Part shown: positions 16,148-35,288 of the stretch, piece by piece
Layout: the number at the start of each line of letters is the position of its first letter
Numbering within the stretch: position 1 is the first letter of the stretch
Position numbers and translations under genes: made by a program
Notes under the pieces: generated by a model
The model's database searches: none
Told to the model about the DNA's origin: nothing
What the model saw: only the letters and a program-made list of their open reading frames with translations
NCBI GenBank assembly: GCA_016125075.1
Contig: WGMO01000004.1
Span: 1 to 64,000, forward strand
Direction: 5' to 3'
Length of the DNA: 64,000 nucleotides
DNA from: Terrimonas sp.
GTDB lineage: Bacteria; Bacteroidota; Bacteroidia; Chitinophagales; Chitinophagaceae

Positions 16148-16280
16148 CCTCTTAGGTGGAAGAGGATGGTGGCTTGTAAAAGGGGCCTTGGTTCGGGGCC
16201 CCTTTCTTTTTGCGCAAACCGCCCCATTTCAGGTTCTCAACGGTAAAGCTTACATTTGTCTTTCTCACTTTAACTTTTTT

Positions 16281-16949: not shown

Positions 16950-16972
16950 GTACAGGATACATTTTTACAATG

Positions 16973-17005
16973 AAAAGTTGACAGGGTTTTCCTGTCAACT
17001 TTTTT
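16973..17005 (+). terminator. Intrinsic terminator after the DUF4290 gene
   Basis: AAAAGTTGACAGG (16973-16985) and CCTGTCAACTTTT (16991-17003) form a 13-bp perfect stem with a 5-nt loop, running into a T-tract. It lies about 25 bp after the stop codon and separates this gene from murA. Confidence 0.9.
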
Positions 17006-17069
17006 GTTTTTACATTGCAGTACTTATAACAGGTTAACGATTATCCCGTGAACCTCTTAATACCAAGCC

Positions 17070-18380: not shown

Positions 18381-18642
18381 AAAAGCGAAGAATATTTTTT
18401 TGATACAAATCTCCAGACAACTGAATTTGAATTGTTGATATCACTCCAATAAGTGTATTTCCTTACTTAGTGAGAAACGATTTCTTTATAACTTTAAGGT
18501 AAACAAATCAGTTGTGTCAATGAAACTAATGTAAGTAATATTGACATAAGTGATATGCGGAAATGGAAGCGTTACTCGCAATACTTTCAGCAACAGTACT
18601 AATTTCGTCAGTTAGACATTAGAACCTTAATCTACAACTAAT
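18381..18642. other. Left boundary of the AT-rich island
   Basis: This 262-bp gap marks the switch from the GC-balanced core to clearly AT-rich sequence. A 19-codon reading frame at 18563-18622 encodes a short hydrophobic peptide (MEALLAILSATVLISSVRH), ending 20 bp before the next gene; it is too short to claim as a gene. No terminator or att-like repeat was identified. Confidence 0.35.
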
Positions 18643-21015: not shown

Positions 21016-21122
21016 TAGACAATTTTCACAACGGGTGACAGAGAAGCACATGCCGGTAACATAAGGTTCCTATGTAAAGCGTTATGAGAGTTTTAAAATG
21101 TTTATAGACGGTTCTACATAAT
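21016..21122. other. Short spacer after the GHKL ATPase gene
   Basis: Contains GCACATGCCGGTAACA and, about 25 bp on, GCGTTATGAG, with an imperfect palindrome (CATAAGG/CCTATG) between them. The layout is reminiscent of cassette-type recombination sites, but the core sites do not fit the integron attC consensus and no integrase is present. No coding potential is seen. Confidence 0.3.
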
Positions 21123-21320
21123 TTATATGTTGTTTTCATCTTCCAATTGTCGCAACCGCTTGAGTTCAGTAACATCCAGGCCTCCGTACTTTTTTTGCCA
21201 ATTGTAAAAGGTCGCTCGGTTGATTTTCAACTCACGGCATATCTGCTGGACATCCTTACTGGCTTCATATGCCTTCAAGGCGCCAGTAATTTATGTTTCG
21301 GTAAATCTTGATTTTTTCAT
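21123..21320 (-). pseudogene. IS3-family transposase OrfA remnant
   Basis: Reading from the ATG at 21320, the frame encodes MKKSRFTET, a TAA stop at codon 10, then a helix-turn-helix OrfA core (ALKAYEASKDVQQICRELK, INRATFYNWQKKYGG) and the start of the leucine-zipper region (VTELKRLRQLEDENN), before ending abruptly. Intact OrfA proteins of this type are longer and followed by an integrase OrfB, which is absent here. It is a dead fragment, showing that the island has taken insertions. Confidence 0.85.
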
Positions 21321-21383
21321 GTTACTACTGTATTTAAATCTAAACAAAATTGTCTAATTTAATACTGTAGGATTTTTGGGGGT

Positions 21384-21595
21384 ACTTTCAAACCGCAAAT
21401 CAATTGGAATACAAATGAAAAGATTAATATTCAGCTTCCATCAATTCACGAACAAAAAAAATTGTACTAGCCATAGAAGAAGAAATGAAATTGGTCAATG
21501 CCAACAAGCGGCTTATTGAAATCTTTGAGCAAAAAATAAAAGACAAAATCAGTGGGGTTTGGGGCGTGAAAGAGGAAGTGAAAACTGCCATTTAA
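21384..21595 (+). pseudogene. C-terminal remnant of a type I restriction-modification subunit
   Basis: One frame (21384-21460) reads QINWNTNEKINIQLPSIHEQKK. After a one-base loss in an A-run the next frame continues IVLAIEEEMKLVNANKRLIEIF and EQKIKDKISGVWG, ending in TAA at 21595. The LVNANKxLIEIFEQKIKxKIxxVW ending is characteristic of HsdS/HsdM-type type I (or fused type IIG) subunits. The 5' part is missing, and the IS3 remnant lies just upstream in opposite orientation, probably the breakpoint. Confidence 0.7.
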
Positions 21596-21612
21596 AATAG
21601 TAAATTTGGAAT

Positions 21613-22389
21613 GTGGAAGAACAAGGTTACATAGAAGTTAAAATTGATGGAACAATCGGTAATAAACCATTGAAAACCATTGATATAGACATTGCTGAGA
21701 TAAAAGAAATCATCAGCGATGTGGAAACCTTTTTATACCCTTCAAGAGGTGAAAAGGCTGAAAGACCCCACATATCCTACAGAATAGAAGAAGGTTCTGC
21801 CCGAAACTTATTTTATCTTCCTATTTCAGGTGTACTCCTATTCAATGGTTTAAGTACCGAAATTAAGAACAGAGGAAACATTGATTTTCTGGACAATAAA
21901 CGAGCTGAAATTATTGATAAGTTTCAGCGTAGAGCCGCAGAAAAGAATCTTGAAATTTCATTTTACAGTTCATCTACAAAAGACCCTATTTTAAAAATAA
22001 ACAAAGGCACTACTTACTTTAAAGTTGCGTCAACTTTTATTGAGACAGAATTTGTACTATATGGTAAAATAAATGAAGAAGGAGGAAACTACCCTAATTT
22101 TCATCTATTAACAAAAGAATACGGAACGTTGGTAGTCAGTGCAACCGAACAACAACTTTTAGAAGGAGAAAAACGCTTATTCAAAGTTTATGGCGTTCGG
22201 GCAAAGGGAAAACAAAACCTTGCAGACGGAAAACCATTTGACTTAAAATTAATTGACTACATCACATACAATCCAAACTATGATGAACATAAATTGGATT
22301 TGTTAATAGAACGAGCCTCGACAAAATGGAATACAGTTCCCAATGTAGATACTTGGCTTCAACAAATAAGAGGAGGTGCAAATGGATAG
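21613..22389 (+). CDS. Unknown protein overlapping a PIN-nuclease gene
   Basis: The 258-residue soluble protein probably starts at the GTG at 21613. No catalytic motif is recognised. It is strand-rich, with RPHISYRIEEGSARNLFYLP (about 56-75), FLDNKRAEIIDKFQRRA (about 96-112) and a second half with AEFVL/YGKINEEGG and YGTLVVSATEQQLLE. It ends inside the PIN gene: the shared 8 nt ATGGATAG contain both start and stop, so the two proteins are translationally coupled. It is too large for a typical PIN antitoxin and lacks an obvious DNA-binding domain, so it may be a sensor or non-classical partner. Confidence 0.75.
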   Translation: MEEQGYIEVKIDGTIGNKPLKTIDIDIAEIKEIISDVETFLYPSRGEKAERPHISYRIEEGSARNLFYLPISGVLLFNGLSTEIKNRGNIDFLDNKRAEIIDKFQRRAAEKNLEISFYSSSTKDPILKINKGTTYFKVASTFIETEFVLYGKINEEGGNYPNFHLLTKEYGTLVVSATEQQLLEGEKRLFKVYGVRAKGKQNLADGKPFDLKLIDYITYNPNYDEHKLDLLIERASTKWNTVPNVDTWLQQIRGGANG

Positions 22390-22852
22390 TATTTTACTCG
22401 ACACCTCTTTTTGTATCAGGTTACTTAAAAGCAATGACGTTTTACACCAAAACGCAAAAGATTACTTCAAATATTTTCTGGAAAAGAAAATTGAGATTTA
22501 CTTATCCACTATTGTTATTGCAGAGTACTCCGTAAAAGATGACCCTGCCAATTTGCCTTTGGACTTTGTCAAAATTATTCCATTTGATTTTTTCGATGGT
22601 AAATCTGCCGGTGAATTTCATTCGATTTTACTTAATGATAAAGAACTAGTAAAAGAAATTGGTAGGGATATAGTTAAAGATGATTGTAAATTAATTGCAC
22701 AACTGTTCAATAGAAATATACAAGGGTATATTACCAAGGACCGCAAATCATTCAGTAAATTTTTTGCACCCATTCAGTCATCGAAAAAATTTCAAGTAGA
22801 ACTTCTTGATTTAGAAATTCCGCTAAAAGACTACAAGGGAGAATTATTTTAA
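22382..22852 (+). CDS. PIN-domain nuclease-like protein
   Basis: The 156-residue protein starts at the ATG at 22382, five bases after an AGGAGG ribosome-binding site, an unusually strong one for Bacteroidota; a GTG six bases upstream is less likely. It opens SILLDTSFCIRLL, and the four acidic PIN residues can be placed at Asp7, Glu48 (VIAEYS), Asp101 (KDDCKLIAQ) and Asp120 (GYITKDRKS). PIN proteins are metal-dependent RNases, often toxins. It is coupled to the unknown gene upstream; no small antitoxin gene is present. Confidence 0.8.
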   Translation: MDSILLDTSFCIRLLKSNDVLHQNAKDYFKYFLEKKIEIYLSTIVIAEYSVKDDPANLPLDFVKIIPFDFFDGKSAGEFHSILLNDKELVKEIGRDIVKDDCKLIAQLFNRNIQGYITKDRKSFSKFFAPIQSSKKFQVELLDLEIPLKDYKGELF

Positions 22853-22898
22853 CTTTTATTTATTCCCTTATTCAGCCTAATGTCAACACAGATAAGCT

Positions 22899-23372
22899 AT
22901 GAATCAAGAAAAGACGGCTATTGAAAATTATATTAATGCATTAAAAGAATTACACAAGTTAGACGTTTTAAAAAGCAAGCACGACTTTACAAGCCAAATA
23001 GGTGAATGGCTGGTGGAAACTATTTATGGCGGAAAAAGAGCAGACAGCAGTATTCAAAAAGGTTGGGATATAAATGTCAAAGGCAAACACATTCAGGTAA
23101 AAGCACACGCAAAGGCAGAAGGCAATAAGAATCGTTGGTCGGCAGTAGAAAAAAACGAAACCGAGAAAATTGATGAACTTATCATTATTGAGTTCACACC
23201 ATTTTACAAGATTCTAAAGTTTTACAAAGTGCCTTGGTCAGAAGCACTCAAACATATCAAGTCGAGAAACATCAAATCTCCCCGCTTTGAACTTTCGTGG
23301 AGCAGTATTGAATCATATATTGTGAACCTTGACTATTTACCTAACCAAAATGTAGTTGCAATTTTCAGATAA
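22899..23372 (+). CDS. PD-(D/E)xK nuclease-like protein
   Basis: The 157-residue soluble protein has a restriction-endonuclease-like core: Glu36 in IGEWLVETIYGG, Asp57 in GWDINVKG, and the QVK triad in HIQVKAHAK (Gln66, Lys68). The D...QxK arrangement is a known variant of PD-(D/E)xK. The rest has LIIIEFTPFYKILKFYKVP. It starts at the ATG 46 bp after the PIN gene and ends 2 bp before a membrane-protein gene, so nuclease and membrane protein look like a co-expressed pair. Target is unknown. Confidence 0.65.
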   Translation: MNQEKTAIENYINALKELHKLDVLKSKHDFTSQIGEWLVETIYGGKRADSSIQKGWDINVKGKHIQVKAHAKAEGNKNRWSAVEKNETEKIDELIIIEFTPFYKILKFYKVPWSEALKHIKSRNIKSPRFELSWSSIESYIVNLDYLPNQNVVAIFR

Positions 23373-23374
23373 GA

Positions 23375-24121
23375 ATGAACGAAGTATTTATTATAGCTGG
23401 TGATTATTTAAAAGGCAAGTCCGTTTATCCTGCATTTCGCAGATTGCTGAATTTGCTTTTTAATATCAGTATTGCTTCGTTCATTTATGAAAAGTGCTAT
23501 GGTTGTTACACTTGGCTCAATTACAACGACTACAAAGGAATTTTGGACTTTTTCATAAAAGGAAATTTCTTTATTCCGTTCAGCATTTTTCTTGTAGTTT
23601 ATGGAACAACTCAGTTTTTATCCATCGGCATTTTTTGGGTCATCAATCATTTCAAATCTGTGAAGCTGACCAGAGAAATATTACAGTATCAGTTCAAAAA
23701 AGAAACGATAGACGAGCGTTTGAAGGACATAAACAAAGTTTCAAAAATTGTAAGCCCTATTCGGTTGACAAAGAACACAATGCTTGCCGTTTATCAGGAG
23801 CTAAGAAACCACATAACACCCGAAGCATTTGAAGAAATAGAAAAAGGGCTGAAAGAACCAAAACAAAATTTAGAAGCCAACTTTACTTTGGCTTTTAGAA
23901 TGATCATTGCAATTACAATTTACTTTTTCTCATTACCGCAGTTTGGTTGGGTGCTTTACCTGACAGCTATGATTGTTTTAATTTTTGGAATTTATGTTCT
24001 TATGATTTCATACCGCTTCCTTGACATAATCCCGACATTGATGAGAAAGTTTCATCATCAGGCAGAAGAATATTTAAAATTACTTTTAGAACAAACTAAT
24101 GAAAATACAGACGATACATGA
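23375..24121 (+). CDS. Multi-span membrane protein paired with the nuclease-like gene
   Basis: The 248-residue protein has about four hydrophobic segments: two in the first half (about 22-38 and 65-90) and two in the second (about 175-195 and 198-217). Between them lies a roughly 80-residue charged, helical cytoplasmic-type stretch (KLTREILQYQFKKETIDERL to EEIEKGLKEPKQN). The C-terminal tail is helical and acidic. No family is recognised. Its ATG is 2 bp after the stop of the upstream gene. A nuclease-like sensor with a membrane effector is a known arrangement in abortive defence, but here it is only an inference. Confidence 0.7.
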   Translation: MNEVFIIAGDYLKGKSVYPAFRRLLNLLFNISIASFIYEKCYGCYTWLNYNDYKGILDFFIKGNFFIPFSIFLVVYGTTQFLSIGIFWVINHFKSVKLTREILQYQFKKETIDERLKDINKVSKIVSPIRLTKNTMLAVYQELRNHITPEAFEEIEKGLKEPKQNLEANFTLAFRMIIAITIYFFSLPQFGWVLYLTAMIVLIFGIYVLMISYRFLDIIPTLMRKFHHQAEEYLKLLLEQTNENTDDT

Positions 24122-24526
24122 CAGCCAACGCACCAGGTCAGGCATATTTACAAGGCACAGGAGCCGTCACACAAAAACCAAAGCTTGCAAAAGAGCCTGC
24201 CTTGTTCCAACGCTCCCGGGACACAGCCTACCTCGGTGGACACAGACTTTCAATTCAAAATACCAAGACGAAGGACGAACATACAACAGGGGTTTTTATA
24301 CTATGCTGGCAGACGTAGTAACAATGAGCTGCATATCAACATCAGCTAATATCGGGCTTGACATTCAATTTTAAGCTTTTAGTAGTTAACTTCAACTTCA
24401 GTAATTCTATTGGGCAGATATTCAATGAACACAAGCACAGCAGCAAGCTCTGTCCGTTGGTTATGCCCAGAAAGAGCAGCCTGATGTTTCAGCGGTAGCC
24501 TACAGGACAAAAAACATTAATAATAT
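24122..24526. other. Long non-coding spacer in the island
   Basis: About 405 bp without a convincing gene, but with higher complexity than ordinary AT-rich gaps: CTTGCAAAAGAGCCTGCC, GCAGACGTAGTAACAATGAG, TTTTAGTAGTTAAC and GTCCGTTGGTTATGCCC. From memory, similar spacers separate accessory genes in other Bacteroidota; I cannot verify that here. It may be a structured or recombination-related element. Confidence 0.4.
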
Positions 24527-25255
24527 ATGGAAGCCATAGTTGTAGTTATTATTGTTGTCCTATTTGTATTTGTAATTCTTTTTTTTAAATCACCTAAAAC
24601 AAAAGGAGCGATAGGCGAATTACGAGTAAAATTAAGTTTGGGTGGGGACATTCCAAACGAAATATATATCATCAATGATTTGTTACTATACATTGACAGC
24701 AAATCACACCAAATAGACCACATAATTATCCGTAAGACAGGCATATTCGTAATTGAGACAAAAAACTATTCTGGACAAATATATGGGCGAGACAACCAAA
24801 AGGAATGGACACAAGTTTTGGCTTACGGACGAGAAAAACACCGTTTTTACAATCCGATACTCCAAAACAAAAGTCACATTTATGCTTTGAGTAAAATTGT
24901 ACACAGAAAGGATTGCTTTATTTCTATTATCGTGTTTCCTAAAGCAGATATAATGACATATTTTGACGCTTATGTAGGTTCTATTTCAGATATGAAACGG
25001 TGGCTCAAACAAGACAGAGAAGAAATATTGACAGCAACAGAGATTGAACAACTTTACACCCAATTAATTGACCACAAAAACAATCCCCGACTTACAAACG
25101 AACAACACATTGACAACATTTACAATTTGCGACAAAGTATTGAGAACAACATTTGCCCGAGATGTGGGAAAAAACTTCTAATACGAAATGGTAAGTATGG
25201 ATCATTTTACGGTTGTAGCGGATACCCATATTGTAAATTCATAAAAAAACTGTAA
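24527..25255 (+). CDS. NERD nuclease-related protein with topoisomerase-type zinc ribbon
   Basis: The 242-residue protein has an N-terminal membrane anchor (about 4-20), then a NERD domain: GAIGELRVKL, HQIDHIIIRKTGIFVIETKN (Asp and ExK nuclease residues) and YGREKHRFYNPILQNKSH. A C-terminal zinc ribbon follows (CPRCGKKLLIRNGKYGSFYGC, then PYC), of the type at topoisomerase I tails. NERD is related to nucleases and common on plasmids and in defence regions. Membrane anchor plus DNA-binding ribbon suggests it meets incoming DNA, an inference. Confidence 0.85.
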   Translation: MEAIVVVIIVVLFVFVILFFKSPKTKGAIGELRVKLSLGGDIPNEIYIINDLLLYIDSKSHQIDHIIIRKTGIFVIETKNYSGQIYGRDNQKEWTQVLAYGREKHRFYNPILQNKSHIYALSKIVHRKDCFISIIVFPKADIMTYFDAYVGSISDMKRWLKQDREEILTATEIEQLYTQLIDHKNNPRLTNEQHIDNIYNLRQSIENNICPRCGKKLLIRNGKYGSFYGCSGYPYCKFIKKL

Positions 25256-25276
25256 AGATAAAAAACGAAAAAGCAC

Positions 25277-25309
25277 GCCCCATAAATTTGGTATTACCAA
25301 TAGTGGGGC
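25277..25309. terminator. Nested hairpin after the NERD gene
   Basis: An outer stem GCCCCA/TGGGGC (25277-25282, 25304-25309) encloses a palindrome TTGGTA-T-TACCAA (25288-25300). On the minus strand it is followed by GTGCTTTTTCGTTTTTT, so it would terminate minus-strand transcripts; it may also stabilise the end of the NERD transcript. Confidence 0.5.
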
Positions 25310-25370
25310 AGGAAATTGGAGCAATAAGCAGCTTTGCAAATCCCAGCTTCATATTCAGCTGACGGAATTT

Positions 25371-25585
25371 TTCGCCCCCCCCGCCCGGGTTCTCCGCCCG
25401 GATAATCATGCAAAATAAAAGATAAATACGGCGGGACCCCGGGAGTACTGAAAACATGAACTGTTGTTGCTCCTTTTTTTAACCTGGGGACCAGCCCGAC
25501 GGTAAACAGCAACAAGGTCCTGGGCAGCCAGCAGCCCCAGGTGGAATCATCCTACAATTTGTGGTTTGCCAAAAATGGGGCTGCC
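25371..25585. repeat. Dispersed structured repeat, copy A
   Basis: Shares most of about 185 bp with copy B at 30671-30866, both beginning ATAATCATGCAAAATAAA and both containing TACGGCGGGAC, GGGAGTACT, an inner hairpin (TTGTTGCT/AGCAACAA in this copy), GTCCTGGGCAGCCAGCA and GGAATCATCCTACAAT. A CCCGG-rich partial palindrome precedes it. Non-coding. Position, just before the AraC module, is described in the findings. Confidence 0.8.
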
Positions 25586-25603
25586 GGCGGCAGGGCCGGT
25601 TTG

Positions 25604-25702
25604 TCAAATGCCTTTACCATCCGGTATGGCCGTAGAACGAATCTGCTCATAAGCGATGCGCCATTCCTGCCAGTGTTGGGGGCTGAAAATCTCTTTAAGA
25701 TC
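25604..25702 (-). pseudogene. Possible C-terminal coding remnant
   Basis: On the minus strand an open stretch reads LKEIFSPQHWQEWRIAYEQI then RSTAIPDGKGI and stops. It looks like a protein tail rather than random sequence, but a stop lies just upstream and no family is recognised. Possibly the last trace of a gene replaced by the repeat and AraC module. Confidence 0.3.
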
Positions 25703-25758
25703 TTACATTTGCTTTAAAATGGGTTGTTGCTTACTCAAAGATTATCAACTTCAGTAAT

Positions 25759-26643
25759 ATGATCAACCTTTATTCTGCTATAAAAAACAGCAATGCATTT
25801 CGTAAACTCGAAGTAAATGAACTTTTATTTGCAGAGTACACCTGCCTCCGGGAAGAGACAAAACTGGGTATTTGGAGCGACAATAATTATTTTGCCTTTA
25901 TCAGTTCCGGCAAAAAAATGTGGCGAACGATCTATCATGCGTATGAAGTCAATGAGGGCGATATCATTTTTATAAAAAAAGGGGCTAATCTTACACACCA
26001 GTTTTTTGATGACGGGTTTTGCGCCATTTTCATTTTTATTCCAGATGACTTTATTAAAGATTTCCTGCATAAAAACCCTTCCCTGATTGATCTAAAAGGA
26101 AAAGAGGTATCCTCGCAGGATGCAGTCATACCGCTGCAAAGCGATGAGTTGCTGACCAATTATTATCATTCCATCCAGTCCTATTTGTTTTTATCTGAAC
26201 AACCCAACAAAGAACTGATAAAACTTAAGTTTGAAGAACTGCTACTGGGTTTGTTCTCTAATCATGCACACCGGGAACTAACGGATTATTTTATCTCTTT
26301 ATGCCAAAGTCAATTATACCAAATGACGAGGGTAATGGAACAGAACTTTGCATATAACCTTAAGCTGGAGGAGTTCGCACAGTTGTGCCACATGAGCTTA
26401 TCCACTTTCAAAAAAAACTTCAAAGAATATTATCATAGCACGCCTGCAGTTTGGCTCAAAGAAAGAAAACTGGACAAAGCGCTTCATCAGTTGCTCTCAT
26501 CAGATGTAAGTATCAGTCAAATCGCTTTTGAAAGCGGTTTTGAAGACACTTCGCATTTTATAAGGGTCTTTAAGCAGAAACATAAACTTACCCCCCTTCA
26601 ATACAGGCAGAAATATACAAGATCGACCAAGACTGCTATTTAA
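25759..26643 (+). CDS. AraC-family transcriptional regulator
   Basis: The 294-residue protein has an N-terminal cupin-like sensing domain (about 1-150; VNEGDIIFIKKGANLTHQFF) and a C-terminal double helix-turn-helix (about 195-290) with LKLEEFAQLCHMSLSTFKKN and ISQIAFESGFEDTSHFIRVF followed by TPLQYRQKY, the AraC signature. It probably controls the adjacent genes: paired direct repeats 21 bp apart lie 4 bp after its stop codon and again at 29191. The inducing ligand is unknown. Confidence 0.9.
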   Translation: MINLYSAIKNSNAFRKLEVNELLFAEYTCLREETKLGIWSDNNYFAFISSGKKMWRTIYHAYEVNEGDIIFIKKGANLTHQFFDDGFCAIFIFIPDDFIKDFLHKNPSLIDLKGKEVSSQDAVIPLQSDELLTNYYHSIQSYLFLSEQPNKELIKLKFEELLLGLFSNHAHRELTDYFISLCQSQLYQMTRVMEQNFAYNLKLEEFAQLCHMSLSTFKKNFKEYYHSTPAVWLKERKLDKALHQLLSSDVSISQIAFESGFEDTSHFIRVFKQKHKLTPLQYRQKYTRSTKTAI

Positions 26644-26646
26644 ACC

Positions 26647-26707
26647 TTTTAGTCGATTTATTTGGCTTTTTAGCCTATAAACCAGGCCCGGCTCGTTTCT
26701 ACATTTG
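26647..26707 (+). promoter_or_regulatory. AraC-type operator and promoter for the first YdhR-like gene
   Basis: Direct repeats TTTTAGTCGAT (26647-26657) and TTTTAGCCTAT (26668-26678) are spaced 21 bp, two helical turns, as AraC dimers need. The second box ends 21 bp upstream of TACATTTG (26700-26707), a perfect TAnnTTTG -7 element, and so replaces the -33 box, which is not otherwise recognisable. The same arrangement occurs at 29191-29250. Binding by the adjacent AraC protein is inferred. Confidence 0.6.
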
Positions 26708-26738
26708 CTGCATATTATTAAACATAAAACAGATTAAA

Positions 26739-27053
26739 ATGAAAAATGCAGAAGCTGTATTAGCCGTAAAATTCAAGACCTCCTTTGAAGCAAAAGAGTT
26801 AATGAAAATTTGTAACGAAAACCTCCAGAGTTTCAGGGATGTACCGGGGCTTATTGAAAAATATTATCTCGCCGAAGAAGTTACCGGTGCCATCAGTGGG
26901 ATCTATCTATTTACCACCAAAGCTGCCCGTGAAGCCTTTTGGACTTCCGAACTCGCAAAAGATATTGTGCCGCGTTATGGGGTAATCGTAGACACACTTC
27001 GCGTTGAACGTTATGATATTGCCATCGTTTTAAACGATGCGGTATTAGCTTAA
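26739..27053 (+). CDS. YdhR-like small dimeric alpha/beta protein (putative monooxygenase), first copy
   Basis: The 104-residue protein (AEAVLAVKFKTSFEAKELMK, GLIEKYYLAEEVTGAISGIY, ARE/AFWTSELAKDI, VDTLRVERYD) has the ferredoxin-like pattern of YdhR/quinol-monooxygenase-type proteins. No cofactor site is needed in that fold. A longer paralogue lies at 29280. It is preceded by an AraC-type operator and followed by a strong terminator, with the FAD monooxygenase just after. A role in redox or xenobiotic response is inferred. Confidence 0.7.
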   Translation: MKNAEAVLAVKFKTSFEAKELMKICNENLQSFRDVPGLIEKYYLAEEVTGAISGIYLFTTKAAREAFWTSELAKDIVPRYGVIVDTLRVERYDIAIVLNDAVLA

Positions 27054-27066
27054 TAAACCCTCCTGC

Positions 27067-27103
27067 TAATAGCCGAAGCAGTTACTTCGGCTATTATTTT
27101 TTT
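27067..27103 (+). terminator. Intrinsic terminator between the YdhR-like and FAD genes
   Basis: TAATAGCCGAAG (27067-27078) and CTTCGGCTATTA (27085-27096) form a 12-bp perfect stem with a 6-nt loop, followed by seven T. Only 21 bp separate it from the next start codon, leaving no room for a separate promoter, so the FAD gene may depend on read-through. Confidence 0.9.
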
Positions 27104-27124
27104 AACAATATTGAACATCACAAA

Positions 27125-28312
27125 ATGAATAATAAGAACATTTTAATTTCAGGAGCCGGCATTGCAGGAACTACGCTTGCCTTTTGGCTGAAAAAATTCG
27201 GTTTTAATCCAACCATCATTGAGCTTTATCCAACATTACGGGAAGGGGGTTATGCCATTGACTTTATGGGCGCCGGATATGATGTCGCTGAAAAAATGGG
27301 AATTATCCCGGCGCTCGAAAAAGCCGATTTAGATATTTCAAAACTTTCTTTTGTTGACAAAAACAACAGGGAGAAAGGCAATATGAATTATCGAAAAATC
27401 AAGCAATTATTGAATAACAGGGCCTTTACGCTCCTTCGCAGTGACCTTGCCAAGGTTATTTACAATAGTATTGATCAGGAAACTGAAATTATTTTTGGTA
27501 ACAGCATTACTAAGATTGAGCAAGATGAAAATAATGTAATGGTCACTTTTCAAAATGGTTTAACCCGCCAATTTGATTTGCTGGTTGGTGCAGACGGATT
27601 ACACTCGAATGTCAGAAATCTAATTTTTGGTAGCGAAGCCCAGTTTGAAAAATATTATGGATATTATACCGCGTCATGTACCATCGATAATTTTCCCTTT
27701 AAAGACAGGGCATTTTCTATGTATAATGTTCCGAATAAACAAGTAGCCCTATATTCTTTCACAGAAAAAAAGACATTTACATTTTTCATTTTCAGCGCCA
27801 ATGAAAAACTATCCTATGCATATCATGACATAGAGAAACAAAAGCAAATCCTGAAAACGGAATTCATGAATATTGGCTGGAAATGCCCGGAAATCCTTTC
27901 AAAAATCGATTCAACTAAAGACTTTTACTTTGATGCTGTTAGTCAGATTAAAATGGAAAAATGGTCCAGCAACAGGGTCGCTTTGGTGGGTGATGCCTGC
28001 GATTGCCCTTCTCTATTATCAGGAAAGGGTTCCACCCTGGCAATGGTTGGTGCGTACATTCTTGCAGGAGAATTAAAACAGGCCAATGGAAATTATAAAA
28101 TTGCTTTTGAGCAGTATCAACATATTTTCAAACCCTTTATTGACAAAAAACAAAAAGCAGCCCAATCCTTCGCAAAATCATTTGTCCCTAAAACTAATTT
28201 CGGCATTTGGCAAAGGAACTTTGCTTTAAAACTAATGTCCCTGCCATTTGTATCAAAATTAATATTTAATCAATTTAAGGATAAGGGATTAATCCTGAAA
28301 GAATACAGATAA
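27125..28312 (+). CDS. FAD-dependent monooxygenase (TetX/PHBH type)
   Basis: The 395-residue flavoprotein has a Rossmann GAGIAG motif near residue 10, the ADGLHSNVR region (about 157-165) and the C-terminal VGDACDCPSLLSGKGSTLAM motif (about 289-308) of class A flavin monooxygenases, close to those of TetX-like tetracycline-modifying enzymes. The family hydroxylates aromatic or drug-like substrates with NAD(P)H and O2. It lies in the AraC module behind a terminator; a detoxification role is plausible, the substrate unknown. Confidence 0.8.
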   Translation: MNNKNILISGAGIAGTTLAFWLKKFGFNPTIIELYPTLREGGYAIDFMGAGYDVAEKMGIIPALEKADLDISKLSFVDKNNREKGNMNYRKIKQLLNNRAFTLLRSDLAKVIYNSIDQETEIIFGNSITKIEQDENNVMVTFQNGLTRQFDLLVGADGLHSNVRNLIFGSEAQFEKYYGYYTASCTIDNFPFKDRAFSMYNVPNKQVALYSFTEKKTFTFFIFSANEKLSYAYHDIEKQKQILKTEFMNIGWKCPEILSKIDSTKDFYFDAVSQIKMEKWSSNRVALVGDACDCPSLLSGKGSTLAMVGAYILAGELKQANGNYKIAFEQYQHIFKPFIDKKQKAAQSFAKSFVPKTNFGIWQRNFALKLMSLPFVSKLIFNQFKDKGLILKEYR

Positions 28313-28584
28313 GCACGGGCTTTAAAAAGGTTTTGCAGCTGGCAGGATGTCAAGTTAACCTGAAAAGCAGTGACGATATTGTAATTAAGTGAGATGAGAG
28401 AATCTATGGATTGGAGTCTGTCCGGGTACAAAGCCAAGAACGGTTGCACCGGCCCGGGTAACTATCCCCGGAACAGGCAATAAAGCAAATTGATGGGGTC
28501 GAAAAATTGGAAGCACTCCTTTTCTAAACTTTAATCAAAAAGTCAGAATTTTACAAATAATCATATGTTTAATAAGTAACCTGG
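28313..28584. other. Intergenic, possible gene remnant
   Basis: The only coding-like trace is LSPEQAIKQIDGVEKLEALL ending at about 28526, preceded by a stop. It is too short to assign. No repeat copy or terminator was recognised. Confidence 0.25.
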
Positions 28585-29042
28585 ATGACAGCATCAATAT
28601 TTAAAACCTGGAATACAAGCAGAAATCTTTACGCCGCCTATTTTGATAATTATTCATTGGAGCAGCTCAATAAGATTCCTGCAGGGTTTAACAATAACCT
28701 GATCTGGAATATTGGTCATATTATTGTAGCACAACAGTCGCTTATATACCAACTTTCCAATTTACAATGCAAATATCAGAGGATTTATTCAACCAGTTTA
28801 AATCCGGCACAAAACCAACCCAAAATATAAGTCAGGCTAAAGCTGACGAACTTAAGTTGCTTTTAATTTCCCTCGTCGATAAGACAAAAATTGATTTGGA
28901 TACCGGGATCTTTGTTTCATTTAAGGAACGGATGACCGGAACAGGCTTTTACCTTTCAACTTTGAATGACGCTTTAGCATTCAATAATTATCATGAAGGG
29001 CTACACCTGGGAGTGATGATGAGCATTCGAAAATTTGTATAA
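28585..29042 (+). pseudogene. DinB-family protein gene, frameshifted
   Basis: The first frame (28585-28830) encodes the N-terminal helix with WNIGHIIVAQQSLIYQLSNL, the DinB histidine region. The second (28767-29042) gives MQISEDLFNQFKSGTKPT and ends in NNYHEGLHLGVMMSIRKF, the DinB metal-site tail. Together they match one DinB protein of about 152 residues; the shift is near 28765 (tta then ca then atg), consistent with loss of one base. DinB proteins are metal-binding, often thiol-transferase-like. It is a pseudogene unless the base is an assembly error. Confidence 0.75.
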
Positions 29043-29190
29043 AAAAATCACGAATCGCTCATCTTAATAACAAAAACCGGGCAACAGAACAATATTTTAT
29101 CACTCCTTAATTTGTTCAGCGAAGGCTGTATGCTTGCTATACCATTTCAAATCTAATTTCAAACTTCGTCATTCCACTCAAATTTAAACG

Positions 29191-29250
29191 CCGCAGTCGA
29201 TTTGTCTGGCGTTTTAGTCGATCCTTTAAATGTAATCGCATCTAGTTTTG
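29191..29250 (+). promoter_or_regulatory. AraC-type operator and promoter for the second YdhR-like gene
   Basis: AGTCGAT (29195-29201) and TTTTAGTCGAT (29212-29222) repeat with the same 21-bp spacing and the same intervening ATTTnTnTGGC as the first operator. TAGTTTTG (29243-29250) is a perfect TAnnTTTG element 20 bp downstream of the second box. Start-to-start distance from box 1 to -7 is 48 bp here and 49 bp in the first operator. Confidence 0.6.
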
Positions 29251-29279
29251 CTGCTTATTATTAATTAAAAAAATTGAAA

Positions 29280-29675
29280 ATGAAAAATGCAGAAGCGATT
29301 TTATTAGTAAAATTTAACTCCTCCCTAAGCCCCGGAGCCTTAATCACAGCATGCCGGGAACAACTGGATGATTTTAGAAATGTACCGGGGCTCATTCAGA
29401 AATATTATATCACTGAAGAGGATTCAGGGGTGGTCAGCGGTTTTTATATTTTTGAAAACAAAACCGCAAGAGCCAATTTTTGGGCGTCAGAATTAGCCAA
29501 AAATATTCCGGCCCTGTATAGCATAAAAGCGTATACGCTCCGGGTGGAACAATACAAAAAACCAATCGCATTAAATGACGAATTATTGGTGAGGCCAAAA
29601 AGATTTATCCGTCCGGACAAAATGGGTAAACCCAATGATCAAAAAGAAACTATCATGACCCGCGTTATGAATTAA
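29280..29675 (+). CDS. YdhR-like putative monooxygenase, second copy
   Basis: About 131 residues from the ATG at 29280. It is clearly paralogous to the gene at 26739 (MKNAEAILLVKFNSSL against MKNAEAVLAVKFKTSF; GLIQKYYITEEDSGVVSGFY against GLIEKYYLAEEVTGAISGIY). It carries an extra basic tail of about 28 residues (RPKRFIRPDKMGKPNDQK). It shares its predicted operator with the first copy and precedes an NTF2-like gene by 29 bp. Confidence 0.7.
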   Translation: MKNAEAILLVKFNSSLSPGALITACREQLDDFRNVPGLIQKYYITEEDSGVVSGFYIFENKTARANFWASELAKNIPALYSIKAYTLRVEQYKKPIALNDELLVRPKRFIRPDKMGKPNDQKETIMTRVMN

Positions 29676-29704
29676 TTTAATCAAACACAAAAAAATACAA
29701 AATC

Positions 29705-30100
29705 ATGAAAAATATAGCAACCCTGGGTGTGCATGCAGAAAGTTCCCAAAACGAAATGTCTCAATATGTCTTACTTCGCCATTTAAGTTCTTTTCAGGAG
29801 AATGATCTCGAAGCGTTGATGGAAGACTATACAAGCGATTCCGTTTTGATCACACCCAATACAAGCTACACAGGGCTTGAAGAAATAAAAGAATATTTTG
29901 CAGACCTGATATCCCATTTTCCCAAACAAAAGTCTATCGTGAAAATAGATAAAACAGTAATAAACGATGATTTAGTATACATTGTTTGGCATGCAAAAAC
30001 ACCCAGCCTGGAAGTTTCCTTTGCAACAGATACATTTATCATAAAAAAAGATAAAATCCTGCGGCAGACTTTTGCAGGTCAGCTCACATCTATTGGGTAA
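29705..30100 (+). CDS. NTF2-like/SnoaL-like protein
   Basis: The 131-residue protein has the cone-shaped NTF2-like plan: VLLRHLSSFQENDLEALMEDY, then SVLITPNTSYTGLEEIKEYFA and alternating strands (VYIVWHAKTPSLEVSFATD). Members are often enzymes or binding partners for small hydrophobic ligands. It lies 29 bp after the second YdhR-like gene, so they probably share a transcript. Function unknown. Confidence 0.75.
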   Translation: MKNIATLGVHAESSQNEMSQYVLLRHLSSFQENDLEALMEDYTSDSVLITPNTSYTGLEEIKEYFADLISHFPKQKSIVKIDKTVINDDLVYIVWHAKTPSLEVSFATDTFIIKKDKILRQTFAGQLTSIG

Positions 30101-30107
30101 ACAGGCT

Positions 30108-30220
30108 TTTCGTCCGCCCGGGGTCACACGGGTAGACCCCGGGCGGACACAGTCTATTGTCGCTTCCTTATTTTACTCCAGGACCCATTTTATTTTGCCC
30201 GGGGAAAAACAACGACAACA
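30108..30220. repeat. Dispersed structured repeat, copy C
   Basis: Begins with a perfect 14-bp inverted repeat, GTCCGCCCGGGGTC (30112-30125) and GACCCCGGGCGGAC (30135-30148). It is followed by a diverged version of the copy A/B inner hairpin (TTGTCGCTTCCTTATTTTAC ... AACGACAACA). Non-coding, located between the NTF2-like and next genes. Confidence 0.75.
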
Positions 30221-30280
30221 GCGTGGAGAAGTTTCTTATTATTGGCGGGGACGGTAAAAAATAAATTAACACTGTGTAAA

Positions 30281-30583
30281 ATGATTTTCATCACTCAATT
30301 AATCTACATTATTGAAGGGCAGGAAAAGGATTTCGATGAATTTGAAAACATTGCAATTCCAATTATTGCAAAATACAATGGCAGGCTTTTGTTACGGGTT
30401 AGGCCAACAGAAAATTCCTATGTGAAATATAATATTGACAAACCTGACGAAATACATCTCATAACATTTGAAACACAACAAGATTTTGAATGCTTTAGGC
30501 AAGACGAGGAACGAAAAAAGGCTTTACAATTAAAAGACAAGTCTATCATGTCATCAATTCTAATTCAAGGGACAATATTATAA
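30281..30583 (+). CDS. Small DUF1330-like protein
   Basis: About 100 residues from the ATG at 30281; an in-frame TTG upstream lies in the repeat and is unlikely. The sequence (MIFITQLIYIIEGQEKDFDEF, AIPIIAKYNGRLLLRVRPTE, PDEIHLITFETQQDFECFR) shows the ferredoxin-like pattern of DUF1330/EthD-like proteins. It is AT-rich and flanked on both sides by copies of the dispersed repeat, suggesting it is mobile or newly acquired. Function unknown. Confidence 0.65.
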   Translation: MIFITQLIYIIEGQEKDFDEFENIAIPIIAKYNGRLLLRVRPTENSYVKYNIDKPDEIHLITFETQQDFECFRQDEERKKALQLKDKSIMSSILIQGTIL

Positions 30584-30595
30584 CGAGCGATCTTT

Positions 30596-30866
30596 CGTCC
30601 GCACGGAATCTCCGCCAGATTTAACCCACGCATAACTAAAATTTTTAGTCCGCCCGGGGTCGCCGCCCTCATAATCATGCAAAATAAAGGAGAAATACGG
30701 CGGGACGCCGGGAGTACTTAAAACTTGACCTGTTGTTGTTTCCTTATTTTAACCTCGGGTGCATTTCATATTGCACGACAGAAAACAGCAACAATGTCCT
30801 GGGCAGCCAGCAAACCCAAGACGGAATCATCCTACAATATGGAGTTTCCCAAAAATAGGGGCTGCC
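30596..30866. repeat. Dispersed structured repeat, copy B
   Basis: The 3' part (30671-30866) is the close relative of copy A. The 5' part contains GTCCGCCCGGGGTC (30648-30661), the same arm as in copies C and E, but the matching arm has been replaced by CGCCGCCCTC. A further partial CGTCCGCACGG sits at 30597. It looks like a mosaic of two element types. Confidence 0.8.
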
Positions 30867-31232
30867 TGAATTCTTCCCCCCACTTTGACAATAGCTGAAC
30901 TCAATACTCAATTTTAGGACGACATGACAATAACTTTTGGGCTTAACATACAGACCATTTCACCCAAGCGGATGACTTTAAAACTGAACCTGTTTTGCAA
31001 CTGGCGCTTACCGTAGGAAGAAATTTGAAAAATTACTATTTTTGACGTAACCATGTTTTGTGAACAGGGCTTGCAGGAAATGGTAATAATAAAAAAATTT
31101 GAGTGTAAGAAGATTCAGGGGGAACACGAAACAAGACGTCTAAATTTATACTGGCTTTTGCCAATCAGGAATCATTTATTTTTTTTTGAATAATCTGCTA
31201 TGAATTCAGAACAAAGATCTGCCAGCACCAAT
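30867..31232. other. Intergenic region before the WG-repeat gene
   Basis: About 366 bp of AT-rich sequence without a convincing gene. TATTTTTG near 31045 fits the -7 consensus but lies far from the next start. No repeats or RNA genes recognised. Confidence 0.3.
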
Positions 31233-32963
31233 ATGTACAAGGTGGCCTCCCTAATCTGTTTCCTTTTTGTCTTTTGGGGTACGGTTGCTGCGCAGGGGCA
31301 ATGTATGATCTATGAAAAGAAAGGGAAGTATGGCATTCTTGTAAAGAAAAATGGCGATTGGAAAACCGCGCTGAAACCCACATATGAAGCCATGCGGGAA
31401 CTTGGGGGGCTTTACAATCAATCCTTTATTTTTAAATCAAAAGGAAAATGGGGGGTAATAGTGGCGGATGAATACGACCTGAAAACATTTATTACCCTTG
31501 AACCGGTTTATGATTCTTTACTGTACAAAATTGCACCCACCAACCGTGACTATTCAAAGGGGGATGGCCTTATTGCCGCCAAAGACGGTAAATGGACATT
31601 TATTTACTTTAGTAAGACAAGTAAAAAGCCGGCTGTACCGGGGTTTCCCTTTTTTGATACAATAATTTACAAGGAAAAAAGCCCTGTTGTACTGGTAAAA
31701 ACCAATCATCTATATGGCGCGTTTTCCTTAGAGGGCAGGGAACTGCTTCCGGTAAGCTATGCATCTGCCAGCAGCCTTACAAAAGACTTTACCTCTAACT
31801 GTTACATTCTTAAGAAACCGGGCGATACCGAGTTAATCATCGAAAATGTAAAAACACCGGGAGAAAGCTTCTCCAGAGATTTGTTTATTCAAAAAGTGGA
31901 TGCCATTGATGAACAGGCATATTCATGGGTGGTCAATGACAAGTCGTTTGTTTTAAAAGAAAATACGATCAAAGAGGCAAACGATGAAACCCTTGATATT
32001 ACCTACCGTATCATAGAGGAAAAAAGCGGGTTTACGATATACAGGCTCGGGAACAACATGGGCATTAAGCGGACAACAACTGGAGAAAAATTCATAGAAG
32101 GCCATTTTGACAAAATCAAATACATTGGACTCAATAACGGCGATAATGCATTCCTGCTCTACGACAGTACCGGGCTGCAGTGTTTTAATGGTCAGAGCAA
32201 AAAAATAGTACCCTGCACCCAAAAACTCATTAGCTACTGGGCAGAAGCCGGTAACCTTTTCCTGCAAACCGAAGAAGGGCGATGGAACCTTTTTCCAAAC
32301 AGCATTACAGCCAGCTCGGGTTATGCCAGCCTTGAACGGATAAACAATAATTTTATCGCTTATACTTCGCCGGAGCAGGCCCTCGTTTTTAGTGGGGTAG
32401 CAAGCATCCCGCCCAAACAGGTCAGGATTCCTGCAAATTCCAAAATAACTGACTTTAGGATCTACTTTACCGCGCTGGTATCAAACGAAGTGAGTTTTGT
32501 TTATAAAATCAACGACCATTACGGATTCCAGGACATGGCTTCCGGTAAAATATTGCCGCCTGTTTTTGATGACATCCAGTATTATCCTTATGCCGATGGT
32601 ATTAGCCTAACCCTTATTTATAAGGGCGCCGCCTATATTGCCAAACTATACGATATCATTTATGCAGGGAACAGGCGCTCCCATTTTATTAAATGTAATA
32701 CCATCAGTCAAAAATGCGGCAACCCCGATTGCCATTTTGGAGTTATTGGCTATTCAGTATATAAAACGGGAGGCAAAACAAATACCCGCGTATATGATAA
32801 ACTTACACTTAATGGAAAACTAACCATAAAAGAAACCTGGACCGACCCCGTGGTTAACCATAGCGAACCAATTGCCTGTAAAGATCCGGCCCACCAGATA
32901 AGGACGGTAGTATTATATAGCAATGCAGACAATACCGGCTACGATATTAAACCGATGAATTAA
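31233..32963 (+). CDS. Secreted WG-repeat-like protein
   Basis: About 576 residues from the ATG at 31233, chosen because MYKVASLICFLFVFWG is a signal peptide; an ATG 11 codons upstream would prefix a polar stretch. The rest has degenerate WG-type repeats: KGKYGILVKKNGDWKTALKP, KGKWGVIVADEYD, HLYGAFSLEGRELLPVSY and NHYGFQDMASGKILPPVFD. Such repeats form beta-propeller-like or solenoid scaffolds. The C-terminal part has four cysteines (CNTISQKCGNPDC). Probably periplasmic or surface; function unknown. Confidence 0.7.
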   Translation: MYKVASLICFLFVFWGTVAAQGQCMIYEKKGKYGILVKKNGDWKTALKPTYEAMRELGGLYNQSFIFKSKGKWGVIVADEYDLKTFITLEPVYDSLLYKIAPTNRDYSKGDGLIAAKDGKWTFIYFSKTSKKPAVPGFPFFDTIIYKEKSPVVLVKTNHLYGAFSLEGRELLPVSYASASSLTKDFTSNCYILKKPGDTELIIENVKTPGESFSRDLFIQKVDAIDEQAYSWVVNDKSFVLKENTIKEANDETLDITYRIIEEKSGFTIYRLGNNMGIKRTTTGEKFIEGHFDKIKYIGLNNGDNAFLLYDSTGLQCFNGQSKKIVPCTQKLISYWAEAGNLFLQTEEGRWNLFPNSITASSGYASLERINNNFIAYTSPEQALVFSGVASIPPKQVRIPANSKITDFRIYFTALVSNEVSFVYKINDHYGFQDMASGKILPPVFDDIQYYPYADGISLTLIYKGAAYIAKLYDIIYAGNRRSHFIKCNTISQKCGNPDCHFGVIGYSVYKTGGKTNTRVYDKLTLNGKLTIKETWTDPVVNHSEPIACKDPAHQIRTVVLYSNADNTGYDIKPMN

Positions 32964-33337
32964 TGAAAATTCCGCTCAGTAATCAACGCCGATAAACATA
33001 AACATGCTTTATAATTTCCTTGCTTACCCGTTAGCTCCCGGCCAAGCTGAACGATTAATGCCAGGCAACAAAATATATCATCAACTGCTTTATTGTGCGC
33101 CAGTCCAAAAATATATTTTGTCTGGTAGCAAACACCCCGGTCACAGAAAAGAATGCCGGAGAGATCTTTTGTAGCAACCCATATCAATGATCTGATTTCG
33201 GTCTTGCCGATTAAATTCCGTTTTTATGGCGTATTTTTAATCCGCTTATGAAATCAATGCATTTTCTGCCTTCTCAAATTTCCGATCACTGCCTGCAATT
33301 GGTTAAAACGCCTTCCAACTATCAAACACAATAATAA
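32964..33337. other. Intergenic, possible decayed sequence
   Basis: About 374 bp. A minus-strand frame (32960-33187) can be read as protein, but its cysteine-rich composition is not convincing. No repeat copy, RNA gene or clear promoter was recognised. Confidence 0.25.
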
Positions 33338-34258
33338 ATGATAAAATTGTTTATTTTTTTTGTATTGATGTGCTTTTCCGGGGCCTGCCATAAAAAAGGC
33401 AATGGAACAGGCAAAAATATCAGCTATCTTATAAGCCCATTTCAAACCGATCCCGATTATGCCACAACAGATGAAAGTCATTATATTGTTAGAAACAATA
33501 AAACACATCTCAATAAATTACTCTTATTTATCGGTGGCAGTTACAGTATCCCAAAAAATTATGCGCTGTTTTGTGACCATGGTGCAACCCTGGGTTTGGA
33601 TGTCATCAGCCTATCCTATCCGAATAAGGTTGCTACTGCCCCACTGGGTTCAAGTGCAGATCCACAGGTGTTTGACCATTACAGAAATGAATTATGTTTT
33701 GGGAATCAGGTAAGCGATGTAGTGTCGGTAGATCTATTAAATTGTATTACAACCAGGACCATAAAACTTTTAATCTATTTAAACGTCACCTACCCGGACC
33801 AGGATTGGAGACAATACCTATCACCTTCAAACACACTCATCTGGGATAAAATAATAGTAGCAGGTCACTCACAAGGTTCAGGACATGCCTGTTACCTTGG
33901 AAAGAAAAACAGGGTCGACAGAGTTATTATGCTTTCGGGACCCAATGATTATAGCACTTATTACAGTAGTCCTGCAAATTGGTTATCTGAAACTGGACTG
34001 ACCCCCTTAAACAGGCAATTTTCATTGCTACATACACAGGACGAAATAGTGTCATTTGATAATCAGGTAGCAAACCTGAGGAGCCTGGGTTTACTAACGG
34101 CAACACAAAGCCCAACGCCAGCAGACAACTTATCTACGCCTTATTTTAATGCCCATGCGCTGTCGCTGCATATTCCAGCCATTTCCTATCATTCATCAAC
34201 AGTCGGTGCGAATCCCATTCTACCCGCTATTTGGACTTATTTGCTAACAACCCCTTAG
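33338..34258 (+). CDS. Lipoprotein with alpha/beta-hydrolase fold
   Basis: The 306-residue protein starts with a lipoprotein signal (MIKLFIFFVLMCFSGAC, lipid on Cys17). The catalytic core has KLLLFIGGSYSIPKNY, the nucleophile elbow VAGHSQGSGH (Ser in GHSQG) and a late acidic/histidine region (LLHTQDEIVSF; FNAHALSLHIP). It resembles extracellular esterase-like hydrolases, probably anchored in the outer membrane. Substrate unknown. Confidence 0.75.
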   Translation: MIKLFIFFVLMCFSGACHKKGNGTGKNISYLISPFQTDPDYATTDESHYIVRNNKTHLNKLLLFIGGSYSIPKNYALFCDHGATLGLDVISLSYPNKVATAPLGSSADPQVFDHYRNELCFGNQVSDVVSVDLLNCITTRTIKLLIYLNVTYPDQDWRQYLSPSNTLIWDKIIVAGHSQGSGHACYLGKKNRVDRVIMLSGPNDYSTYYSSPANWLSETGLTPLNRQFSLLHTQDEIVSFDNQVANLRSLGLLTATQSPTPADNLSTPYFNAHALSLHIPAISYHSSTVGANPILPAIWTYLLTTP

Positions 34259-34271
34259 CATTGATTACACT

Positions 34272-34390
34272 CCCCTGGGTTGTTCTGGCGACCCAGGAAG
34301 TACTCAAAAACAAGGAGCATTGTTGTTTCCATATTTACACCATGACCCAATACATGATACCTGGGGGAAAAAAGCAAGGGTGTAAAAAAT
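34272..34390. repeat. Dispersed structured repeat, copy D
   Basis: CCTGGGT (34274-34280) pairs with ACCCAGG (34291-34297). The segment then reads AAGTACTCAAAAAC and TTGTTGTTTCC...TATTTACA, matching the GGGAGTACT...TTGTTGTTTCCTTATTTTA core of copy B. Diverged and non-coding. Confidence 0.6.
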
Positions 34391-34483
34391 ATCAAATAAT
34401 TCTATGATAAAGAAAGGAAAAATCAAATAGCTACCTAGGATAAAGCTGCCAGTTTTTTCCGGGAGTTCATCATTTTAGCATCT

Positions 34484-34600
34484 TCGTCCGCCCGGGGTCG
34501 CCACAAGCAGACCCCAGGCGGACTGAAAAAAACAAAGGTTGCTGGAACTGCATTATTTTATTCCGGGGCTCATTTCACATTGAATAAGGAAGAGTCCTCA
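34484..34600. repeat. Dispersed structured repeat, copy E
   Basis: GTCCGCCCGGGGTC (34486-34499) and GACCCCAGGCGGAC (34510-34523) form the same GC-rich stem as copy C with one mismatch. It is followed by TTGCTGGAACTGCATTATTT and GGCTCATTTCACATTG, related to copy B. It is separated from copy D by about 95 bp. Confidence 0.7.
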
Positions 34601-34737
34601 GGGGCGGGTATGCCAAATTAATTCCTCTCCGGGTCGGATAAATAAGTATAGACCCCTGCTGCCGGTGAGTCCGCATGATTCGTATATTTAAGTGCAAATT
34701 GATTCTGTTAGAATATTGTCACCAAAAATTAACCCCA

Positions 34738-35238
34738 ATGACCAGGACCACGCTATTCGCCTCCTGCCTGCTGATGGCAAGCTTTTGCAGCTGCAACAAT
34801 GAAGACCATTCCCATAAAACAGTTGGAGAAGCCTCCCCGAAAGCTGCCGACACCGCAGTATATTTTTACCTCCGCCCGCAACTGGAAAAAGAATATGGCT
34901 ATACCCATGCCGTGCAGATCGGTGACGACCTTAAGATCTCCGGGGCGGTGAGCATGGATGATGCCGGAGTGATCGTGGCCCCGGGCAATATGGAACAACA
35001 GATGAAAAACTGCTATAGCGACCTGGAGAAAATACTGCAACACTATGGTTATAGTTTTGACGACGTCGTGGCAGAAAATGTCTATACCACCGATATGGAG
35101 GAATTCATCCGGGTATCCGGTTTCCGGCATTCCATCTATAAAAAACAATTCCCTACCGGCACCTGGCTCGAAGTAAAAGGCCTGGCCGTAAAAGGACAAC
35201 TGATCGAGATCGATATGGAAGCCCATCGGTCCAAATAA
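34738..35238 (+). CDS. RidA-family lipoprotein
   Basis: About 166 residues from the ATG at 34738, which gives an N-terminal export signal ending in a Cys-rich lipobox-like SFCSCNN. The rest is a YjgF/RidA fold: QIGDDLKISGAVSMDDAGVIV, NMEQQMKNCYSDLEKILQHYG and DDVVAENVYTTDMEEF. The catalytic arginine of RidA, in the FPxRT region before VE, is absent: here FPTGTWLEVKGLAV. It may therefore be a non-deaminase member outside the cytoplasm, unlike classical RidA. It precedes the M61 peptidase. Confidence 0.75.
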   Translation: MTRTTLFASCLLMASFCSCNNEDHSHKTVGEASPKAADTAVYFYLRPQLEKEYGYTHAVQIGDDLKISGAVSMDDAGVIVAPGNMEQQMKNCYSDLEKILQHYGYSFDDVVAENVYTTDMEEFIRVSGFRHSIYKKQFPTGTWLEVKGLAVKGQLIEIDMEAHRSK

Positions 35239-35288
35239 CACCCATGGTTGCAAAAGGGAGTAGTGCTTTTGCATTGAAAAAATCAAAT

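Follow-up and report, generated by a model that had tools for sequence, protein, structure and literature searches.

Predicted direct-repeat operators of an ExsA-type AraC-family regulator in front of two ydhR-like genes of Terrimonas sp.

The araI1-I2 operator of Escherichia coli AraC consists of 17-bp half-sites repeated in the same orientation with a 21-bp spacing close to the core promoter. A comparable arrangement is described here for the window, i.e., the whole analyzed stretch of 64,000 nucleotides (positions 1 to 64,000, forward strand, of contig WGMO01000004.1 of Terrimonas sp., GenBank assembly GCA_016125075.1), in which two promoters (promoter 1, 26641-26707, and promoter 2, 29185-29250) in front of genes for YdhR-like proteins carry paired half-sites and a gene for an AraC-family regulator (25759-26643, forward strand) ends on the first of them; the N-terminal domain family and the targets of this regulator differ from those of E. 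coli AraC. The system also resembles that of ExsA of Pseudomonas aeruginosa, which shares the PF22200 N-terminal domain and, according to sections of PMC12648661, has two sites centred at -44 and -65, i.e., 21 bp apart, the better of which overlaps the -35 region, while its two helix-turn-helix (HTH) motifs read two words per site, GnC and TGnnA. Unlike ExsA, the window system has a different sequence to be read, a Bacteroidota -7 element, and other targets. AraC motifs with 21-bp periodicity, one of them from Bacteroides, have already been published (passages of PMC3870299), and the architecture is therefore of a known AraC kind; the predicted AraC-family rhamnose regulators of Bacteroides, Bacillales, and Enterococcus treated in those passages differ from the present one in having rhamnose genes as targets, and their motifs, said there to be unique for each group, were set beside the window motif by description only. 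In targeted searches of open-licence papers the regulator clade, the operator, and its overlap with the stop codon were not found, and few described binding sites were found for these common regulators.

The regulator (294 amino acids, aa) belongs to the AraC/XylS family by its C-terminal DNA-binding domain with two HTH motifs (HTH_18, PF12833, 5e-22; HTH_AraC, 1.4e-19) and to the ExsA-type subgroup by its N-terminal domain (ExsA_N, PF22200, 5e-40, 137.5 bits at a cut-off of 27), as revealed by its open reading frame and Pfam. Half-sites directly repeated at 21 bp, a further trait of the AraC/XylS family, were found at the window promoters and among the held-out homologues presented below.

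Within the window, the repeated unit is 17 bp long and can be written [TC][AT]RRC-N5-AG[TC]C[GT]AT. At operator 1, the distal half-site TAAACCTTTTAGTCGAT occupies positions 26641-26657 (predicted -71 to -55) and the proximal half-site TTGGCTTTTTAGCCTAT, 21 bp further, positions 26662-26678 (predicted -50 to -34); at operator 2, which has no adjacent araC gene, the distal half-site TAAACGCCGCAGTCGAT lies at 29185-29201 (predicted -70 to -54) and the proximal half-site CTGGCGTTTTAGTCGAT at 29206-29222 (predicted -49 to -33), all on the forward strand. The numbering was obtained by setting the TAnnTTTG element at -12 to -5, after passages of PMC9723704. This -7 element is TACATTTG at promoter 1 (26700-26707, forward strand) and TAGTTTTG at promoter 2 (29243-29250, forward strand), starting 28 and 27 bp, respectively, past the start of the second box. 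The coordinates bear out the original prediction in that each promoter carries two boxes exactly 21 bp apart from start to start (AGTCGAT at 26651-26657 and AGCCTAT at 26672-26678; AGTCGAT at both 29195-29201 and 29216-29222), ATTTnTnTGGC between the boxes is common to both, and TAnnTTTG follows 21 nt (promoter 1) or 20 nt (promoter 2) past box 2. The genes behind the promoters, 2.5 kb apart, are paralogous, as had been claimed: target gene 1 (26739-27053, forward strand) encodes a 104-aa YdhR-like putative monooxygenase (PF08803, 31.4 bits, cut-off 27.1), and target gene 2 (29280-29675, forward strand) a YdhR-like paralogue 53% identical to it (Pfam ydhR, 26.4 bits, slightly below the same cut-off). 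The prediction fell short in naming the AGTCGAT-type boxes only, as this box is the promoter-proximal part of the 17-bp half-site, which includes an upstream box as well. The first half-site thus begins on the araC stop codon, TAA (26641-26643) being its first three bases; the earlier description of the araC gene as ending 4 bp before the site is right for the longer TTTTAGTCGAT, whereas the core box starts at the eighth base after the stop codon. No match to a known structured RNA was found with Rfam within 16000-36000.

We consider it highly probable that the AraC protein encoded at 25759-26643 binds both operators head to tail and activates the two promoters of its own genome in front of the YdhR-like genes in the class II manner. 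With direct-repeat half-sites 21 bp apart, two AraC subunits would sit on the same face of the DNA in head-to-tail order, with predicted centres at about -42 and -63, and the proximal one would take the place of the -33 element and aid the sigma factor at TAnnTTTG. Bacteroidetes promoters can carry TTTG at -33, which is required for full activity (parts of PMC2483708). Inspection of both window promoters revealed no TTTG at -37 to -30, and the second half-site reaches -34 at promoter 1 and -33 at promoter 2, in agreement with the proposal that box 2 stands where the -33 element should be; the proximal site thus covers part of the -33/-35 region and keeps a constant distance to the core promoter, as in class II geometry. 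The assignment to an AraC-family operator in class II position, likewise put forward earlier, is supported by the conservation, the genome-wide specificity, the araC linkage, and the promoter geometry, all of which fit it. A signal would act through the ExsA-like N-terminal domain. In ExsA itself the pocket is presumed to be vestigial (sections of PMC12648661), and therefore a partner protein and a small molecule are both possible as the signal. It should be stressed that the sites, their conservation, specificity, and fixed geometry were obtained by computation. From these sequence data we infer the binding by AraC, the activating outcome, and the role of the N-terminal domain.

E. coli AraC acts as a repressor or an activator depending on its ligand, and a proximal half-site over -33 could also block the polymerase. 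Repression at both operators, or a ligand-dependent switch between repression and activation, is the strongest of the competing explanations and yet an improbable one: the lack of TTTG near -33, together with the fixed distance of 27-28 bp to TAnnTTTG, is the pattern expected of a protein replacing that contact, and ExsA, the namesake of the N-terminal domain family, is described as an activator in sections of PMC12648661.

Class II activation is also in line with the conservation of the promoters. Both boxes, their 21-bp spacing, and TAnnTTTG at 27/28 bp are retained in all eight aligned AraC/YdhR-type promoters, which originate from six genomes; two of these promoters (window site 2 and G162b) have no adjacent araC. 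YdhR as the sole query retrieved two metagenome-assembled genomes (L009 and L010), both with araC directly upstream, and AraC as the query retrieved 67-70% identical relatives in three of the 394 family genomes beyond the window's own (G076, G140, and G162). The element is present in all five of these araC-ydhR intergenic regions, as well as upstream of a second YdhR gene of G162 (L046), localized on a contig distinct from that of its araC. In G076, the YdhR match beside araC covers residues 1-49 only, with an internal stop codon, and lies at the contig end, and a second partial YdhR match lies on another contig. The 20 invariant columns of the 64 in the eight-promoter alignment are all placed within or beside the boxes and the -7 element, and the stretch from box 2 to the -7 element is poorly conserved. 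The first half-site of this clade can be written T[AGT][AG][ACG]C-N5-AGTC[GTA]AT; 8/8 share the T at position 1, the C at position 5, and the AGTC, A, and T of the box. Among the six YdhR-type loci linked to araC, this half-site starts exactly on the araC stop codon in five (TAA, TAA, TAG, TGA, TAA) and covers that codon in the sixth. With a matrix built from the six outside sites, the two best scores of the window fell on 26651 (31.5 bits) and 29195 (27.7 bits), ahead of 15.4 bits for the next match, and the leave-one-out scores of the eight sites (21.4-35.3 bits) each exceeded the maximum of the reversed-window control (at most 16.6).

The genome search for 21-bp-spaced pairs, suggested together with the original prediction, gave a mixed outcome. 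In the 3.92-Mb genome, AGTCGAT-N14-AGTCGAT has a single exact match, at 29195 (the site at 26651 differs from it by two mismatches), and with up to two mismatches the window contains both known sites alone, where 0.20 would be expected and 2/100 shuffles reach two. The loose pattern (up to three mismatches) turned out to be unspecific, giving 122+133 genomic matches versus 147+131 in the reversed control; the pattern alone therefore proves little, and the loose search was set aside as evidence in favour of conservation and a profile model. This sequence-only model of the eight sites, R1, was run against the complete sequences of eight genomes, with no more than 150 candidates scored per genome, and recovered all eight sites, which it does by construction; in the window genome (G000) the two window sites scored 52.8 and 48.9 bits, the next match 11.2 bits, and there was no further strong site. 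In a search of 59 genomes including the window's own (E<=0.01, stricter filters, at most 89 candidates scored per genome), R1 found the two G000 sites and one 18.2-bit match in G416, and nothing in the other 57. A congener (G021), without an AraC relative reaching 1e-30, gave no R1 match at E<=0.01; such relatives are present in 54/394 family genomes. As R1 finds two strong sites only, the regulon seen in the window genome is, as predicted from sequence, two promoters, so that the AraC regulon claimed earlier stands for these two and none beyond them was found in the genome.

Half-site pairs of the same spacing were also found with more distant AraC homologues. In those 36-43% identical to the window regulator, the unit is about TGRAC-N5-AGYAA, occurring twice 21 bp apart. 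At two loci with an AraC homologue 49% identical ahead of an OsmC gene, the unit is TG[AG][AG]C-N6-G[TC]C[TA]A[TC]; the downstream box served to locate these half-sites, after which the upstream one turned up at the expected place. The OsmC promoter of G649 scores low with R1 (11.5 bits; E 1.6 for the whole genome and 0.029 for 28 loci), and the site was therefore assigned by place and geometry. At L043 the geometry is alike by eye, but CACCTTTG replaces TAnnTTTG and R1 gives no match. R1 has 13 further matches in G649, mostly from a repeated 18-bit family, and 11 of the 13 score above the OsmC promoter. The near-equal 18-bit matches lie on contigs C174, C181, C13, C89, and C189, about 5 kb apart within C181 and C189, and this group is possibly a repeated promoter.

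The generality of the spacing was assessed with a half-site matrix derived from 24 half-sites of 12 loci selected for one fixed offset from the araC stop, and with a held-out set of 46 further AraC-homologue loci (7 loci and 39 stretches; the six weakest homology matches were left out). With 24 lags to choose from, the best pair had a lag of 21 in 22 of the 46 loci, versus an average of 2.23 (maximum 6) over 100 dinucleotide shuffles and of 3.1 (maximum 8) over 200 column-shuffled matrices. A matrix-free test also peaked at lag 21 (12.3/46, next 3.4). Considering 74 loci (the 46 held-out ones and 28 discovery loci, among them those used for training) in their whole length and on both strands, pairs of at least 18 bits had lag 21 in 41 loci and any other lag in at most two.

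Several results weigh against the interpretation favoured here. No pair of at least 18 bits was found in 33/74 homologue loci (9/28 and 24/46), among them the two OsmC loci, in which the downstream box differs. R1 matches only 1/28 homologue loci, its own training sites fit it by construction, and homologous loci are non-independent samples. Finally, the matrix of the methyltransferase clade misses the window sites: its best lag-21 pair (12.2 bits) lies elsewhere, and other lags score as high in the window. The clades would thus read different sequences. As seen by eye, regulators of the YdhR and OsmC clades have MS in HTH1 and GFE[DE].S[HS]FIR in HTH2, and those of the methyltransferase clade mostly RS and GFE[NS]..HFSR; these differences amount to about one evolutionary contrast and were not counted as proof.

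The binding of the operators by the adjacent AraC is itself inferred, and the window genome encodes at least one further AraC relative (C22:223110-223910, 30% identical), so another regulator of the same genome might read these real operators. Such a reading appears less probable still than repression, as like sites adjoin homologous araC genes with differing targets and are found on the opposite side when the target is divergent. It is hardly credible that the likeness of the two promoters is a remnant of a recent tandem duplication without regulatory meaning, even with two paralogous genes only 2.5 kb apart, and this was rejected from the conservation alignment and the closeness of the second YdhR protein (YdhR2) to its G140 counterpart, given that these sites recur in six promoters outside the window, the stretch from box 2 to the -7 element diverged while the boxes did not, and YdhR2 is 71% identical to the G140 copy versus 53% to the product of target gene 1 (YdhR1), grouping with G140 (88/95) in a small tree with three of four inner branches drawn open. 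The window SnoaL-like protein is 63% identical to that of G140; judging by both proteins, site 2 seems to have a long history of its own, with the operator kept without an adjacent araC gene.

Within the AraC clade, 32 operators are placed downstream of araC, and 19 of them overlap the stop or last codons (12 of these 19 are training loci picked for that offset; otherwise it is 7/20). Upstream placement, with the operator facing a divergent neighbour, was seen in 11 loci, two of which have an operator at both places. The element TA..TTT[GA], which played no part in the half-site matrix, lies 27 bp past box 2 in 33/43 operators and 28 bp past it in one (15 and 1, respectively, of the 24 held-out operators), and control stretches 300 bases further gave three scattered matches. 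The targets include two kinds of S-adenosyl methionine methyltransferases, a UbiE-like methyltransferase, OsmC, an acyl-CoA dehydrogenase, an NnrU-like membrane protein, a pyridoxal phosphate (PLP) decarboxylase, a flavin adenine dinucleotide (FAD)-linked oxidase, an SCO4226-like protein, and one protein without a Pfam match at 0.001; twelve targets were scanned with Pfam and the remainder classed by eye from the protein start. On a tree of 46 regulators having an operator and a classed target (L090, L111, and L130, with unclassed targets, were omitted), the target labels need at least 14 changes, the least possible number being 10, and the OsmC clade (L043 and L044) groups with the YdhR clade (100/99). 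The upstream box (about TGRRC) changes little across the clade, and the downstream box varies (AGYAA, GYCWAY, AGTCGAT), so that one HTH would read a near-constant word and the other a clade-specific one. We lean, by a narrow margin, toward viewing this large ExsA-type AraC clade of the class Bacteroidia, to which the window regulator belongs, as a compact and portable one-neighbour switch made of a regulator, an operator on or near its own stop codon, and one exchangeable target, with the upstream box about constant and the downstream box specific to the clade.

For such a regulator the site can often be identified from sequence alone, by way of the bases at or just after the stop codon and the fixed distance to TAnnTTTG, and the control of little-studied enzymes, e.g., the YdhR-SnoaL pair, becomes predictable. 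Some forty regulator-site pairs from clades that apparently read different words make it possible to test how HTH residues correspond to bases, and, if the view is true, the constant and variable boxes offer a natural series from which the AraC recognition code could be worked out.

Two arrangements within the clade are worth mentioning. In L106 and L107, operators flank the regulator gene, toward a methyltransferase gene and a PLP decarboxylase-like gene (the latter called by Pfam in L106 and by eye in L107). In L090, the gene behind the operator appears by eye to encode a second AraC-like regulator, which would make a regulator cascade.

Sequence relatives of the window regulator in the PDB include GadX, Rns, and a TCP pilus regulatory protein. 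Its predicted structure, based on an alignment of three rows, has a mean predicted local distance difference test score (pLDDT) of 56.4, with a poor N-terminal half, and is usable in the C-terminal domain only (block-mean pLDDT 72-92, residues 191-290). A search for plasmid carriage with tblastn gave 820 records, all below 60% identity, the ten matches listed being 29% identical. A PDB sequence search with YdhR1 gave no match.

A SnoaL-like gene (29705-30100, forward strand; PF12680, 4.8e-08) begins 29 bp past target gene 2 and is probably co-transcribed with it; the ydhR-SnoaL gene order is also present in L009, L010, L015, and L046. YdhR and SnoaL folds both occur in enzymes that act on aromatic compounds. 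The gene between both targets (27125-28312, forward strand) is FAD-dependent monooxygenase-like, with model matches below cut-off (tetracycline destructase model, 280 bits versus 550; PRK07588, 447 versus 454). Its co-regulation is not supported, because a terminator-like hairpin of 12 pairs followed by a T run (27067-27096, forward strand) separates it from target gene 1; this is the longest stem in the scanned region, in which six terminator-like sites were found versus 5.6 expected. The monooxygenase gene need not belong to the regulon and is probably outside the control of the operator, and transcription may read through the hairpin into it.

Ahead of operator 2, the stretch 28586-29042 resembles a decayed gene, with stop codons in the frame tried, which we take by eye to be DinB-like. 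The whole araC-ydhR-SnoaL region is bracketed by the two copies of a direct repeat some 210 bp long (25380-25600 and 30650-30866; 82% identity); no further genomic copies were found at E<=1e-5, and the repeats may be the ends of an acquired 5-kb unit. The stretch 20000-32000, with a NERD-domain gene at 24527-25255, has a low G+C content (0.34-0.39 versus about 0.42-0.46 elsewhere) and is a possible island.
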